5,453 nucleotides of DNA from Oscillospiraceae bacterium (GTDB lineage Bacteria > Bacillota > Clostridia > Oscillospirales > Oscillospiraceae): contig JAGAMQ010000063.1 in assembly GCA_017624645.1 (NCBI GenBank), forward strand, positions 1-5,453, in the 5' to 3' direction. The stretch's first letter is position 1; the number at the start of each line of letters is the position of its first letter. Below are positions 1 to 5,453 of the stretch, piece by piece. The notes beneath the pieces were generated by a model, which did no database searches, was not told the origin of the DNA, and saw only the letters and a program-made list of their open reading frames with translations. The translations under genes and the position numbers were made by a program.

Positions 1-487
1 GGGTAAAAAGTGTGCTTAATTTTCCGTAGACACCTTGGGTCAAATAAAACTCAAAGGCCATTTGATCCACCAAAGCATAGTCCAGCAGACCGCCGCTGAC
101 CCGTGCCATAAGCTTCAAAGAGGCAGAGTAGTTGTCCTCACCGTTGGTGGGGTCCGCAAGATCGGCAAAATTGGCGTAATCCATTTCCACCAGCTGCGTG
201 CCTTCCTCACCGCCTATTTTTTCAAAATAGTCCTCGGTAAGATAGTTATACCCCTCCTGGGTAATGGTGATATTGACCATCATGCCCCGAAGCAGGACCT
301 CCTTGGTGCTGTTAAGGAAGCTGGTAACCGTCATAACCACCAGCACCACTATAAGGGCAGCAATCAACAGATACTCTTTGTAGTAGGTCCAAAGATGATC
401 CACCTTCTGCCCAAAGGACATGGGCTTCATGTCCTCCAAAAGCTCCCGAAAAGTGGGAATCACACTTCTTTCTTTTTTCTTCTTCAT
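1..487 (-). CDS. Single-pass membrane protein of unknown function, N-terminal 162 residues (partial)
   Basis: The frame opens at ATG 487 on the minus strand and runs off the left edge with no stop, giving 162 residues. An AGAGGG ribosome binding site lies 9 nt before the ATG. The N-terminus is cytoplasmic in character (MKKKKERS), followed by a polar stretch with FGQKVDHLWTYYKEY at residues 25-39, then one hydrophobic segment at about 40-58, then a soluble region rich in acidic and aromatic residues (to residue 162), presumably outside the membrane. A short F-x-x-K-x-x-x-x-W-x-YYK stretch just before a single membrane helix is something I remember from uncharacterised Clostridia membrane proteins; that is recollection, not a search. 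The gene is divergent from the AraC-type regulator, and a pair of putative operator half-sites at 520-562 points toward it, so it is a likely regulon member. No function can be assigned. Confidence 0.8.
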   Translation of the reverse strand, partial: MKKKKERSVIPTFRELLEDMKPMSFGQKVDHLWTYYKEYLLIAALIVVLVVMTVTSFLNSTKEVLLRGMMVNITITQEGYNYLTEDYFEKIGGEEGTQLVEMDYANFADLADPTNGEDNYSASLKLMARVSGGLLDYALVDQMAFEFYLTQGVYGKLSTLFT

Positions 488-508: not shown

Positions 509-537
509 TTGACAAATAAGACAAAATCGTTTATAAT
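509..537 (+). promoter_or_regulatory. Consensus sigma-A promoter of the AraC-family gene
   Basis: TTGACA at 509-514 and TATAAT at 532-537 match the housekeeping consensus at all twelve positions and are separated by 17 bp. Transcription should start near 544, giving a short leader before the ATG at 579. One putative operator half-site (520-531) fills the spacer and a second (551-562) sits just after the likely start, so bound regulator should block this promoter. Confidence 0.88.
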
Positions 538-562
538 ATTGCCAGAAACAAACCAATTCGTT
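520..562 (-). promoter_or_regulatory. Putative AraC-type operator, direct-repeat pair with 31-bp period
   Basis: Read on the minus strand, AACGAATTGGTT (562-551) and AACGATTTTGTC (531-520) are direct repeats offset by 31 bp, close to three helical turns. The same motif with the same offset recurs on the plus strand at 2398-2440. The pair covers the -10 region and spacer of the AraC-gene promoter and is oriented toward the minus-strand gene that starts at 487. Autorepression plus control of the divergent gene is inferred from this position. The upstream half-site is the weakest of the four (9 of 12 matches to its partner). Confidence 0.55.
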
Positions 563-578: not shown

Positions 579-1412
579 ATGTCCATGCCCGGTATTTATA
601 GTTGCTATGGCGGAACTTTTCGGTACGTTTTGTTCAACGGCATGATTCCGTACCCCTATACCATGCATGAGCACTTTGAGCTATTCCGGGTCCGCAAAGG
701 CAGCCTCACTGTTTCCATCGACGATGTTCTTGTGACCCTCAAGGAGGGAGATGTATCTCTCACCGCCCCCTTTGTGTTCCATAAAAGCGACCAGTCTCCG
801 GATTCCATCGTGGAAATGATGAGCATTGCCCCCCACCTTTGCTCGGAGGTAGCACAGCTTTACAGCAAGCAGAAGCCCAAGCTACCCTATATCCGGGAAG
901 CAAACCTTCCGCCATTGGTAAAAAACCTGCTGGACGCCATCCCGGAGATCATTAAGAAGACCGCAGAGAACAGCGGCGACGAAGTCCACGAAACTTACAC
1001 CCTGGGCAGAGAGCAGTGCACCGATATACAGCCATACCTGTCTGTTCTGCTTTTGGAGCTGACCAAAAGCATTGAGCTGGTTCCCTCGGATGGCCATAAC
1101 ATCAATTCCATGCAAAAGGTGCTGAAGTACTGTACCGCCAATTTCACCCAGGACATCACCCGCCATACCGTAGCACAGAACTGTAATGTAAGCCTTGGAA
1201 TGATCTCCCAAACCTTCAACCGTTTAGGGACCACCTTCCGGGACTATATCAACACCCTGCGAATCAACCGGGCGTATCAATTGCTGGTCACCACCCGCAA
1301 GCCCATCACCGAGATCATATACGAATGTGGCTACTCCAATCAGGGAACCTTCAACCGGAATTTCCACGCCCAGTTTGGAAAGTCCCCCCGGGACATCCGC
1401 CATGGCAAATAA
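579..1412 (+). CDS. AraC-family transcriptional regulator with N-terminal cupin sensor domain
   Basis: This 277-residue protein has the usual two-part AraC layout. Residues about 25-75 form a cupin-like ligand-binding barrel: HEHFEL at 30-35, a glycine turn (RKGSLTV), then EGD and a late histidine (FHKS, 67-70). Residues about 178-277 are the DNA-binding domain, with a first helix-turn-helix near 191-212 (ITRHTVAQNCNVSLGMISQTF) and a second near 242-263. The second carries the family signature PITEII-x-ECGYSNQGTFNRNF followed by FGKSPRDIR. Length is normal for the family, and the start is set by AGGAGG 8 nt upstream. The gene has a consensus promoter overlapped by paired repeats that look like AraC-type half-sites, implying autoregulation. 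The same paired repeats occur between the two DUF624 genes, suggesting they are targets. The cupin ligand is unknown; small sugars are common for this architecture, but that is family knowledge only. Confidence 0.95.
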   Translation: MSMPGIYSCYGGTFRYVLFNGMIPYPYTMHEHFELFRVRKGSLTVSIDDVLVTLKEGDVSLTAPFVFHKSDQSPDSIVEMMSIAPHLCSEVAQLYSKQKPKLPYIREANLPPLVKNLLDAIPEIIKKTAENSGDEVHETYTLGREQCTDIQPYLSVLLLELTKSIELVPSDGHNINSMQKVLKYCTANFTQDITRHTVAQNCNVSLGMISQTFNRLGTTFRDYINTLRINRAYQLLVTTRKPITEIIYECGYSNQGTFNRNFHAQFGKSPRDIRHGK

Positions 1413-1469: not shown

Positions 1470-2150
1470 CTATTCCTCTTCTTCGTCTTTGGGAAGAGGT
1501 TGGCTGCCCTCCTCTGCCAGCAGGGTCCCGTTTTCCCGGGCCTCCTGAAGGAAATCCAGCAAACCGTCCTTCAAAAGCATGGTAGAAGCCACCGCGGCAA
1601 GGGTGAAATATACCGCAATAAAGATCATAATGATCTGCACAAAGATGATCATATCCCACAGAAGGGCAATAAGCACCGGTGCCCAGAACAGCATTGCCGC
1701 CACAAACAGCATCAGAGGGTAGCGGAAAAAATTCACCGCGTTACGCAGCCATTGAGCGATACCTGTGGGAATGTACACATTCAAAAACTGCAGGGCCATG
1801 GTAACCATGGTTGCCATGGCAAAAAACAGCCCGCAAATGCCGATGTCCAAAGGATTGCCCCCTTGAATAGCGTTGTTCAGATCCGCAAGGAATACCCAGC
1901 ACAAGGGCAAGCAGATGCACCAGCTGATCAGGCTGCGCCAAAAACGGGTAGTATAGCCGGCCTTAAAGCCCTGGAACCAGCCGTCGCCGCGAATGTTGTA
2001 ACGAACGGAGGTAAGCAGCCCGTTCCACGCAGGTCCAATGGTCACGATGGGAATACAGGCAATGAGGAACATAAGGTTCATAAGGATCGCCGTTCCGGCC
2101 ATGGTGACAACCTTGCCCAGCTTATCCATAAATGTTTCTTTTTCTTTCAC
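1470..2150 (-). CDS. DUF624 (YesL-type) integral membrane protein, paralogue 1
   Basis: A 226-residue polytopic membrane protein from a GTG start at 2150. Residues 32-40 read CIPIVTIGP, the hallmark of the DUF624/YesL family, at the end of the first membrane segment (about 20-42). It is followed by the family's pattern of a charged loop with aromatic residues (GWFQGFKAGYTTRFWRSLISW, 57-77). Further membrane segments are near 72-92, 101-122, 142-164 and 165-189. The C-terminus is a short, strongly acidic cytoplasmic tail (KDEEEE). ATG 2159 is an alternative start adding three residues, but it directly abuts the only ribosome binding site, whereas GTG 2150 lies 9 nt from it. The gene ends in TAG, so TAG acts as a normal stop here. 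The family has no established biochemical role; yesL of Bacillus subtilis lies in a pectin-utilisation cluster. The divergent gene at 2651 encodes a paralogue. Confidence 0.9.
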   Translation of the reverse strand: MKEKETFMDKLGKVVTMAGTAILMNLMFLIACIPIVTIGPAWNGLLTSVRYNIRGDGWFQGFKAGYTTRFWRSLISWCICLPLCWVFLADLNNAIQGGNPLDIGICGLFFAMATMVTMALQFLNVYIPTGIAQWLRNAVNFFRYPLMLFVAAMLFWAPVLIALLWDMIIFVQIIMIFIAVYFTLAAVASTMLLKDGLLDFLQEARENGTLLAEEGSQPLPKDEEEE

Positions 2151-2159
2151 GGAGATCAT

Positions 2160-2221: not shown

Positions 2222-2397
2222 AAAAACGAACCGTGACAGCATTTTTTCAGGGACTTCCCACAGAGCTATCCGGGGTATCCTCCGGTTGTTTCATAAAACG
2301 CCCCTGCTAATATACACCTGGACCAAACCCTCGCCCCGACCGTTATAAGAGATCCTGCACTTATCCTTGATTATAATGAAAATCAGGCTTTTACACA

Positions 2398-2440
2398 AAC
2401 GATTTCGTCAGTTAAATTATATATTTATAACGATATTGTC
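2398..2440 (+). promoter_or_regulatory. Putative AraC-type operator, direct-repeat pair with 31-bp period
   Basis: AACGATTTCGTC (2398-2409) and AACGATATTGTC (2429-2440) are direct repeats differing at two of twelve positions and offset by exactly 31 bp. The 19 bp between them are almost pure A/T. The motif, its direction relative to a downstream membrane-protein gene and its period all match the pair at 520-562. I infer binding by the AraC-family protein encoded at 579-1412. The pair lies about 155 bp before the -35 of the plus-strand DUF624 gene, which is far for direct activation, so looping, a nearer unseen promoter, or control of the minus-strand gene are all open. Confidence 0.55.
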
Positions 2441-2594: not shown

Positions 2595-2623
2595 TTGCAT
2601 TTTTGGAGAGATTCCTTTAGAAT
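2595..2623 (+). promoter_or_regulatory. Sigma-A promoter of DUF624 paralogue 2
   Basis: TTGCAT (2595-2600), a 17-bp spacer and TAGAAT (2618-2623) form a good housekeeping-type promoter. Start of transcription near 2630 would leave a leader of only about 20 nt, almost all taken up by the ribosome binding site. Confidence 0.65.
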
Positions 2624-2650: not shown

Positions 2651-3340
2651 ATGAATCTGTTTTCCTACGAATCCAAGCCTATGCAGATCATCATGCAGCT
2701 TGGAGATCTGATCATTCTCAACCTTTTGTACCTACTGTGCTGTATCCCCATCTTCACCATTGGTGCCGCCCAGGCGGGCCTATACAGCGGTGTCAAGGTC
2801 ATGCAGGACCCGGAAGACGACACCTATGTGACCACCGCCTTTTTTAAAGGCTTCCGCAACGGCTTTGGCCGGGTCACCATTGCATGGTGTCTTTTGTTTG
2901 TGGTGGAATTGGTACTGGCAATGGCGGCATATGCCTGCGTGTACTACCAGAAGGTAATGAACGCTGATCTTCCCCTGTGGGCCTCCCTCATTGGTCTTTG
3001 GATCGTTGGAACTCTGCAGGCATTGGTCACAGTGTTCCACAGCCGGTTCAGCTGTACCGCAATGCAGCTGCTGCGCAATGCCTTTTACCTTGCCATTTTT
3101 CACCCCATCCGCAGCCTGGGGGTTACCCTATTTACGTGGCTTCCCCTGCTGTGCCTGCTTCTGTCCCCCGGCATGAGCCTTTTTATGGCACTGACCCCCA
3201 TTTGGTTCGCGATCTACTTCTCCGGCACCTTCGGCTTTAACTACAGCTTTATGAAGAAGCCATTCCAGGTTCTCATCGACGATTTCAACGAAACAAAGGA
3301 AGAAGCAGAAAAGGAGCAGGAAGAGCCTGCCCAAATCTGA
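2651..3340 (+). CDS. DUF624 (YesL-type) integral membrane protein, paralogue 2
   Basis: A 229-residue membrane protein starting at ATG 2651. The DUF624 signature is clear: GDLIILNLLYLLCCIPIFTIG (18-38), then a small-residue stretch (AAQAGLYSGVKV) and a loop ending in AFFKGFRNGFGRVTIAWC (63-80). Membrane segments are near 17-42, 74-98, 108-130, 144-172 and 174-193. The cytoplasmic tail (about 201-229) is highly charged, with alternating E, K and Q residues, as in paralogue 1. The two paralogues share the CIPI-x-TIG core, overall length and topology but are otherwise well diverged, so the duplication is not recent. It is a single-gene transcription unit with its own promoter and a terminator 10 nt after the stop. 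Family function is unknown; links with carbohydrate-uptake loci are known from other Firmicutes. Confidence 0.92.
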   Translation: MNLFSYESKPMQIIMQLGDLIILNLLYLLCCIPIFTIGAAQAGLYSGVKVMQDPEDDTYVTTAFFKGFRNGFGRVTIAWCLLFVVELVLAMAAYACVYYQKVMNADLPLWASLIGLWIVGTLQALVTVFHSRFSCTAMQLLRNAFYLAIFHPIRSLGVTLFTWLPLLCLLLSPGMSLFMALTPIWFAIYFSGTFGFNYSFMKKPFQVLIDDFNETKEEAEKEQEEPAQI

Positions 3341-3731: not shown

Positions 3732-3766
3732 GTCCGGGGGACGGAGCTATGCTCCGTCCCCCGGAC
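3732..3766 (-). terminator. Strong hairpin terminator of the large surface-protein gene
   Basis: A perfect 16-bp stem (3732-3747 with 3751-3766) closes on a 3-nt loop and is followed on the minus strand by AATTATT. It starts 22 nt after the TAA at 3789-3791 but 151 nt after the in-frame TAG at 3918-3920, which favours the TAA as the ancestral gene end. The T tract is weak, so it may act by the hairpin mainly. Confidence 0.65.
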
Positions 3767-3917: not shown

Positions 3918-5453
3918 CTAACTCTGCTCCACAACCAGAGCATTGCCATCGACCTTCACAGACTTGCCGCTGTCAGCTGCTTCGATCTGCTCGTTGTCCA
4001 AGTAGCCCTGCAGCACAGCAGCGTCACCCTCAGTAGTGAAGATGCCGGAGGCGGTGATTCTCAGCTTTGCGTCGTCGCCCAGCTCGCCCAGGGTGATCTT
4101 CTTGCCTTCAGGGATCTGCAGATTTTCGATCTGCACATTGCCTTCGATGGAGGCATTGGTGACATTCATAAAGTTGGCAGTGCCCTCGATAACAGCATTG
4201 CCGCCCAAGGCTACAACACTGGCGCTGACGTTTGCATTACCAGCCTGCATGCCACCAACGATCTTGCCGCCATCCATGGTGAAGGTGCCGCCGCCGTAAA
4301 CTGCCTGCTTACTGGGGCTGGCAGAGGTGATCAGACCGCCGTGGATGTTGATGATGGATCCGCTTAAGCCGAAAACCGCAGAGGCGTCGGATGTGGTGGA
4401 ATCCATACCCTTAATCGTACCGCCGTACATGGTGAAGGTCCGGTTTGCGTTTACACGGACGCATGCGCCGCCGTAGCTCTCGGTGTTGGTCAGATCGGAG
4501 CCATCCAACACAGCGCGGCCTGCCAAGGTGAAGGGGCCGTGCTGTGCATAGACCAGCGCGCCGGTCGCAACGGTGGTGACACCCTCTTCAAGCTGAAGCT
4601 TCACAGAGCCTGCTTCACCCTGGGTGGACAGGTCGGTGATAGCCAGGGAGGGAGTAATGTTGTCGCTGGGATTGGTATCTTTGACATAGAAAGCACGGGC
4701 ACCGATGGTGGTAGCCACACGGGTAATGGTGTGACCGTTCAGGTCAATGCGCAGGTTGCCGCCGGTAGTCCTTTCACTGGAAAGAGTCACATCCTCAGTA
4801 AGAATCCAGTTACCGGAAGCAGCAAGCTTTGTCTTGTACTCGCCATCTGCATAACCCACCGCAGCGCCTGTGGCAGTGCTGTTGTTCCACAGATACCAGT
4901 TAACGATTTCCTCGGGGCAGTCGGCAGTTTCGCCTACGTGGATGGTGTGACCGTTGATGCAGTGCTCAAGACCCACAGTCAAAGCACTGTCCTTCACCAA
5001 AATGTCGCCAGGCTTGGTGGCACTGAGGATCTTACCGCTTGTCACATACGCCTGCAGCGTCTCTGCGACGCCGGTTTCCGTAAAGACTCCGGTGGCAGTG
5101 ACAGCAATCTTGGCATTCTCGCCAAGCTCGCCCAGAGTGATCTTCTTGCCTTCAGGGATCTGCAGATTTTCGATCTGCACATTGCCTTCAATGGTGGCAG
5201 TGGTGAAGTTCATCAGGTTGGCAGTGCCCTCGATAACAGCATTGCCGCCCAAGGCTACAACACTGGCTTTGACGCTTGCATTACCAGCCTGCATGCCACC
5301 AACGATCTTGCCGCCATCCATGGTGAAGGTGCCGCCGCAGTAAACTGCCTGCTCACTGGTGCCCTCGGAGGTGATCAGACCGCCGTGGATGTTGATGATG
5401 GATCCGCTTAAGCCGAAAACCGCAGAGGCGTCGGATGTGGTGGAATCCATACC
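3918..5453 (-). CDS. Large repetitive beta-helix-type surface or secreted protein, C-terminal 511 residues (partial)
   Basis: The frame enters from the right edge and runs to TAG at 3918-3920; the N-terminus, signal peptide and any cell-wall anchor would lie outside the window. The sequence is a series of short beta-strand and turn units typical of right-handed parallel beta-helices: DLNGHTITR, TFTMYGGTIKG, INIHGGLIT, TFTMDGGKIVGG, GGNAVIEGT and EGNVQIENLQIPEGKKITLGEL. One module starts CINGHTIHVGETADC and contains WYLWNN, marking a boundary between repeat units. The protein repeats with a 348-residue period, and about one and a half units are visible. Such proteins in gut Clostridia are usually long, cell-surface or secreted, and thought to bind host or glycan ligands, but nothing here shows a ligand or an enzyme active site. 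The tail beyond TAG (to 3789) is probably part of the original gene. Confidence 0.82.
   Translation of the reverse strand, partial: GMDSTTSDASAVFGLSGSIINIHGGLITSEGTSEQAVYCGGTFTMDGGKIVGGMQAGNASVKASVVALGGNAVIEGTANLMNFTTATIEGNVQIENLQIPEGKKITLGELGENAKIAVTATGVFTETGVAETLQAYVTSGKILSATKPGDILVKDSALTVGLEHCINGHTIHVGETADCPEEIVNWYLWNNSTATGAAVGYADGEYKTKLAASGNWILTEDVTLSSERTTGGNLRIDLNGHTITRVATTIGARAFYVKDTNPSDNITPSLAITDLSTQGEAGSVKLQLEEGVTTVATGALVYAQHGPFTLAGRAVLDGSDLTNTESYGGACVRVNANRTFTMYGGTIKGMDSTTSDASAVFGLSGSIINIHGGLITSASPSKQAVYGGGTFTMDGGKIVGGMQAGNANVSASVVALGGNAVIEGTANFMNVTNASIEGNVQIENLQIPEGKKITLGELGDDAKLRITASGIFTTEGDAAVLQGYLDNEQIEAADSGKSVKVDGNALVVEQS
4081..4409 (-). repeat. Long tandem repeat in the surface-protein gene, distal copy
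   Basis: This 329-bp stretch aligns without gaps to 5125-5453 at an offset of 1044 bp (348 codons); I count 18 mismatches, about 94.5% identity. The last 89 bp (4321-4409) have only two differences, both at the start of that stretch. Similarity falls off sharply toward 3918, where only protein-level resemblance remains. Confidence 0.9.
5125..5453 (-). repeat. Long tandem repeat in the surface-protein gene, proximal copy (continues off the window)
   Basis: Partner of 4081-4409. The repeat is still perfect at the window edge, so the duplicated block and probably more units extend into the neighbouring sequence. One of the differences changes glycine to cysteine (AVYCGGTF here, AVYGGGTF in the other copy). 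Confidence 0.88.

Follow-up and report, generated by a model that had tools for sequence, protein, structure and literature searches.

Does a pair of short direct repeats found on either side of an AraC-family gene form the operators of the regulator encoded between them, and which neighboring genes would such operators serve? The question is raised by a stretch of 5,453 nucleotides (the window), in which the AraC-family gene is the only regulator recognized. Its genes and the four repeat copies, or boxes, are arranged as follows:

2..487, minus strand: MP162, membrane protein, by eye with a single apparent span, cut by the contig end
520..531, minus strand: box S1B, AACGATTTTGTC, 0 mismatches to AACGAWWTBGTY
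551..562, minus strand: box S1A, AACGAATTGGTT, 0 mismatches to AACGAWWTBGTY
579..1412, plus strand: AraC-family regulator, PF12833 and PF00165 above their cut-offs
1470..2159, minus strand: DUFrev, DUF624 protein, PF04854 33.7 bits (cut-off 24.2)
2398..2409, plus strand: box S2A, AACGATTTCGTC, 0 mismatches to AACGAWWTBGTY
2429..2440, plus strand: box S2B, AACGATATTGTC, 0 mismatches to AACGAWWTBGTY
2651..3340, plus strand: DUFfwd, DUF624 protein, PF04854 48.9 bits (cut-off 24.2)

The box pairs and the regulator between them

An earlier note on this DNA had described the four boxes as two direct-repeat pairs with one period and A/T-rich centers, and this description was confirmed in full. All copies were recovered at their positions and on their strands without a mismatch, the 31-bp period was exact in both pairs (562-551 and 531-520 on the minus strand; 2398-2409 and 2429-2440 on the plus strand), and the 19-bp centers contained 14/19 and 18/19 A/T. 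Read along their own strands, the pairs were AACGAATTGGTT-19-AACGATTTTGTC (S1) and AACGATTTCGTC-19-AACGATATTGTC (S2), with eight of the 12 columns identical across the four copies (AACGA, T8, G10 and T11). The S1 and S2 boxes matched each other at 9/12 and 11/12 positions, whereas the spacers matched at 8/19 and the flanks at 7/20 and 6/20. Since the boxes agree between the sites while the spacers and flanks differ, S1 and S2 do not represent a plain duplication.

The regulator gene most likely starts at ATG 579 rather than at GTG 570, because its closest relatives (P0001-P0005) start there, with AGGAGG (565-570) as the Shine-Dalgarno sequence. The AraC helix-turn-helix domain of its product passed the cut-offs of both families (PF12833, 69.4 bits against 33.6; PF00165, 38.5 bits against 26.6), and the motif NQGTFN of the second helix-turn-helix was invariant in 27/27 aligned regulators. 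The best NCBIfam match was RhaS (NF010028), whose 65.2 bits did not reach the cut-off of 288, and the putative N-terminal cupin-like domain scored 22.3 bits with PF07883, below the cut-off of 27.2. An AlphaFold2 model computed from GTG 570 (mean pLDDT 84.7, pTM 0.70) resembled ToxT/Rns over the full length as well as the sensor domains of AraC, RhaR and BgaR, and this predicted structure suggests that the N-terminal domain may sense a small molecule. From the DUF624 context, and from genes near some of the relatives that by eye we take to encode carbohydrate-type ABC permeases, we infer a sugar as the ligand.

Promoters at the two sites

The promoters and promoter-like matches that bear on the function of the pairs are the following:

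509..537, plus strand: predicted sigma70 promoter of the AraC-type gene, TTGACA-17-TATAAT, 12/12 match
2370..2398, minus strand: weak promoter-like match toward DUFrev, TTGTGT-17-TATAAT, 9/12, its –35 meeting S2A at 2398
2390..2418, plus strand: weak promoter-like match, TTTACA-17-TAAATT, 9/12, its spacer containing S2A
2595..2623, plus strand: proximal DUFfwd promoter, TTGCAT-17-TAGAAT, kept in aligned relatives and separate from S2

At S1, the predicted promoter of the regulator gene is of a quality reached in 6 of 2000 mononucleotide shuffles. Box S1B (520-531) occupies the 3′ part of its spacer, up to and abutting the –10 hexamer, and S1A (551-562) is placed in the predicted 5′ leader, ending two bases ahead of the Shine-Dalgarno sequence. 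Because a protein at S1 would lie over the regulator's core promoter, autorepression is preferred over classical upstream activation. A promoter search for the divergent MP162 returned a single 9/12 match, the –10 of which ends at 488, beside the start codon.

The two DUF624 genes are separated by 491 bp, and the S2 pair is found mid-way in this region, in which, besides an antisense frame reaching in from DUFrev, reading frames of at most 57 aa were present; no Rfam family was detected in the window at gathering score. Some 155 bp separate the pair from the conserved DUFfwd –35, which is downstream of it, and some 175 bp from the –35-like element of a promoter-like site proximal to DUFrev (TTTTGA-17-TAAAAT). 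Seven relatives aligned with the window had a proximal DUFfwd promoter of the CTTG ... 17 ... TAAACT type, and the DUFrev side of the region aligned poorly with relatives. Matches of 9/12 occur in the window at chance level (5 found against 4.8 expected from shuffles), so that any target and direction assigned to S2 are tentative. The regulon membership proposed in the earlier note consequently held in part: S1 is at the promoter of the regulator, but S2 is off the conserved DUF624 promoter and may serve either DUF624 gene.

The reading that we prefer, with a probability of roughly 60% and judged from sequence, is that of a local AraC-family operator, likely self-repressing, which would also control a split DUF624/membrane-protein operon. 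The two pairs would be the operators of the regulator whose gene they flank, and its predicted mode of binding is through two DNA-binding domains, placed three helical turns apart on each pair. When bound at S1 (520-562), it would cover its own consensus promoter from the spacer through the –10 to the start of the transcribed region and thereby repress itself; any promoter of the divergent MP162 would need to be in this same place. At the other pair, S2 (2398-2440), the regulator may control an extra distal promoter feeding the DUF624 genes, most likely DUFrev, and a sugar-like inducer would act on the putative cupin-type N-terminal domain. With the regulator gene between DUFrev and MP162, each half would have one operator pair.

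It is also conceivable, if rather unlikely, that the pairs are activator sites, where the regulator together with its inducer would recruit RNA polymerase, self-repression being a mere side effect; S2 would then drive the reverse promoter TTGTGT-17-TATAAT toward DUFrev, and S1 an unrecognized MP162 promoter. Most of the studied AraC-family proteins are activators, a weak –35 and a perfect –10 adjoin the boxes at S2, and MP162, parted from DUFrev by the regulator gene, would need a separate promoter. However, the sole good match at S1 is the regulator's consensus promoter, whose spacer contains a box, so that a bound protein would block the polymerase, and the match at S2 is a weak one of a class found about as often in shuffles.

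Specificity of the boxes

A search of the own genome (1.34 Mb, completeness 68%) for the 31-bp pair with up to three mismatches and position 9 free returned S1 and S2 only, two extra rows being the same sites on the opposite strand. Similarly, S1 and S2 were the only pairs in 136 genomes of the genus, the own included, both with up to two mismatches and position 9 free (reversed control pattern, one match) and when exact 12-mer pairs were sought with gaps of 6-36 bp; the exact pair was absent from the viral contigs searched. The box pattern was derived from these four copies, and for this reason the genome searches measure specificity and not an unbiased P value. The scan proposed in the earlier note thus indicated that the pairs are not scattered at random, this locus being the only one in the own genome and in the 136 genus genomes, so that they have been seen in one genome only. 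What remains of the claim of an operator and regulon is a specific local element around the AraC-family gene, with no other such pair in the available part of the genome, and the pairs can be regarded, on sequence grounds, as a specific, local and non-random operator-like element.

Single boxes were less restricted: besides the four in the window, six were found elsewhere in the 1.34 Mb of the own genome, and none with the reversed control. Each box of the pairs is moreover an imperfect dyad, with 16/24 positions complementary. An unlinked dimeric repressor that binds near-palindromic 12-bp boxes, with the AraC-type gene as merely one of its targets, could account for both observations, and one of the six additional sites is a perfect palindrome, AACGAATTCGTT. 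Such a repressor is nevertheless improbable: full-box pairs occur around the AraC-type gene only, the six single sites are near the approximately four that we estimate from uniform base frequencies, the palindrome is inside a 134-aa reading frame, and the constant AACGA half points one way within each pair.

To find a wider regulon, a looser search was made for pairs of the 8-mer AACGAWWT with gaps of 6-36 bp. Three more pairs were obtained in the own genome (C87, offset 21; C136, offset 22; C182, offset 30) and none with the reversed control; of the other 135 genomes of the genus, 64 had a match, with 87 rows in all, or about 0.64 per genome. Three pairs are somewhat high against this figure but unconvincing, and no wider regulon is claimed from them. 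The pair on C136 (L134:7103-7136) reads AACGATTT...AACGATTT and is placed just ahead of an apparent large minus-strand gene, the antisense frames of which resemble, by eye, those of the repeat protein of the window; this gene is a possible but unproven additional target. At a paralogous regulator locus on C73 (32% identity), one box with two mismatches and no pair were found in 8.3 kb.

The resemblance between the sites was compared with chance by accepting any two 12-mer pairs with a common offset of 13-60 whose four copies were at least as alike as those of S1 and S2. None of 500 dinucleotide-shuffled windows contained such pairs. The real window gave 18 further rows, all of them inside an internally repeated gene (4102 and beyond), and natural 5.45-kb windows from 18 fetched loci gave matches in 4/42, where the printed rows (up to three each) were all same-strand. 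That the pairs arose by chance, or are functionless relics of a promoter duplication, would agree with their presence in a single genome and with the distance of S2 from both proximal promoters, but is very improbable in view of the shuffles, the lack of a further pair in 136 genomes and the agreement of the boxes amid differing spacers and flanks, unlike a decaying duplication.

The remainder of the window presents features of its own. A large reading frame rich in repeats (3918-5453, minus strand) runs off the contig and matched no Pfam family; a stretch of 300 nt is repeated within it (4036-4335 and 5080-5379, 89% identical), and its product looks, by eye, like a beta-helix surface protein. 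A perfect 16-bp stem with a 3-base loop (3732-3766) is terminator-like for this gene. The segment 3379-3729, located 3′ of DUFfwd, is bounded by an inverted repeat of 22 nt (91% complementary) and contains several hairpins; it possibly represents a small intergenic repeat.

The split gene pair, its relatives and known systems

The gene cluster was followed through the relatives of DUFfwd in the genus, which reach 54% identity and from which 16 surrounding regions were fetched. In eight of them (L087-L092, L094 and L099), DUFfwd was divergent from DUFrev, followed by MP162 on the DUFrev strand, and the distance between DUFrev and MP162 ranged from an overlap to less than 100 bp in seven and was about 270 bp in L094, with starts as chosen. 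Region L096 had a DUF624 gene and then an MP162-like match, and the other seven (L093, L095, L097, L098 and L100-L102) a DUF624 match alone. No AraC match was found inside the DUF624/MP162 cluster in any of the eight; in two of these, AraC-type genes with 24-27% identity were present at distances of about 5 and 12 kb. Hence, DUFrev and MP162, between which the regulator gene is found in the window, are neighbors on one strand in the AraC-less relatives. The DUF624 intergenic regions of these eight relatives (158-355 bp) had no box within two mismatches of AACGAWWTCGTT, and four of them had matches with three mismatches.

The listed relatives of MP162 were mostly of 229-249 aa, and no Pfam family was found for this protein at E 0.001. 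Both DUF624 proteins pass the PF04854 cut-off, in common with YesL/MusI-like members of that family, and scored 31.7 and 83.4 bits with MusI (NF052431), for which the cut-off is 160 bits. Cluster relatives (L087, L088, L090, L092 and L094) were often close to genes which we take, from the way they read, to encode a ribulose-phosphate epimerase, LplB/YtcP-type ABC permeases and YjbQ-type proteins. According to PMC6120924, yesU and a rhamnogalacturonan acetylesterase gene adjoin a DUF624 gene in B. subtilis.

Relatives of the regulator itself were scarce among related genomes. Among the matches listed, none exceeded about 33% identity over most of the length in 100 other genus genomes, in the 35 remaining ones, in a 400-genome family sample (E up to 1e-15) or in a 394-genome order sample (E up to 1e-30); C-terminal-only matches in genus, family and order genomes reached 42%. 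One regulator-like locus (28% identity) was found in GTDB contigs, and the protein search of viral contigs gave no match. A protein database search returned 31 matches, of which 26 (42-98% identity) were used and five (22-29%) dropped.

Co-occurrence was assessed by comparing the longest-contig sizes listed for these relatives with those of the DUFrev relatives (best 120 of 232 matches) and of all 82 MP162 relatives. Seven of the 26 regulator relatives shared a contig size with a listed relative of either protein: four sizes (19338, 25442, 4721 and 3449 bp) were common to all three, two (6178 and 5958 bp) to the regulator and MP162 only, and one (2572 bp) to the regulator and DUFrev only. Jittered sizes gave mean matches of 0.36 for DUFrev, 0.31 for MP162 and 0.04 for the triple. 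The other 19 sizes matched neither list, and 11 further sizes were common to DUFrev and MP162 relatives without a listed regulator. The 6178-bp contig, with proteins 98-99% identical to those of the window, is probably from the same species and no independent lineage, and the single coincidences at 2572 and 5958 bp could be due to chance (about 0.3-0.4 expected each). Taken together, the shared sizes suggest, indirectly, that other lineages also keep the regulator, the DUF624 protein and the membrane protein in company.

E. coli AraC represses its own promoter and also acts at a second distant site, and the proposed self-repression with a second site would be analogous to its araI1-I2/araO arrangement; its araI1-I2 direct repeats are 21 bp apart, against 31 bp here. 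PMC3870299 gives a 21-bp period for rhamnose regulators of the AraC type from Bacillales, Bacteroides and Enterococcus; for E. coli RhaR, it gives inverted half-sites of 17 bp separated by a spacer of 17 bp. The present system would share with those 21-bp operators an AraC-family regulator, a local regulon and two in-phase direct-repeat boxes, but has a period of 31 bp (about three turns) at both sites, boxes that are imperfect 12-bp dyads, and S1 over the core promoter of the regulator. The E. coli RhaR/RhaS half-sites are also about three turns apart, but are inverted, whereas here they are direct. Among the regulators covered in PMC3870299, a 31-bp direct repeat is unusual and near the three-turn span of RhaR. 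Literature searches showed no paper that deals with the regulator or with an AraC repeat of 31 bp, which is not taken as absence from print.

Somewhat short of an even chance, a broader proposal may be advanced, namely that a distinct AraC subfamily (the 26 relatives with 42-98% identity) reads a direct repeat of near-palindromic boxes with a three-turn period of 31 bp, and that it entered and split an existing DUF624-membrane-protein operon, with one operator pair on each side and both halves under a single regulator. The preferred reading would describe gene control of a common type in which the boxes are unusually spaced, and its main interest is in the 31-bp period and in the place of the regulator in a split gene pair. 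An uncharacterized AraC subfamily would thereby gain a concrete candidate operator and a small likely target set that includes DUF624 proteins of unknown function, it would become testable how a dimer of the AraC type reaches across three helical turns rather than two, and a case would be provided of a regulator gene inside a gene pair that is kept together in relatives.
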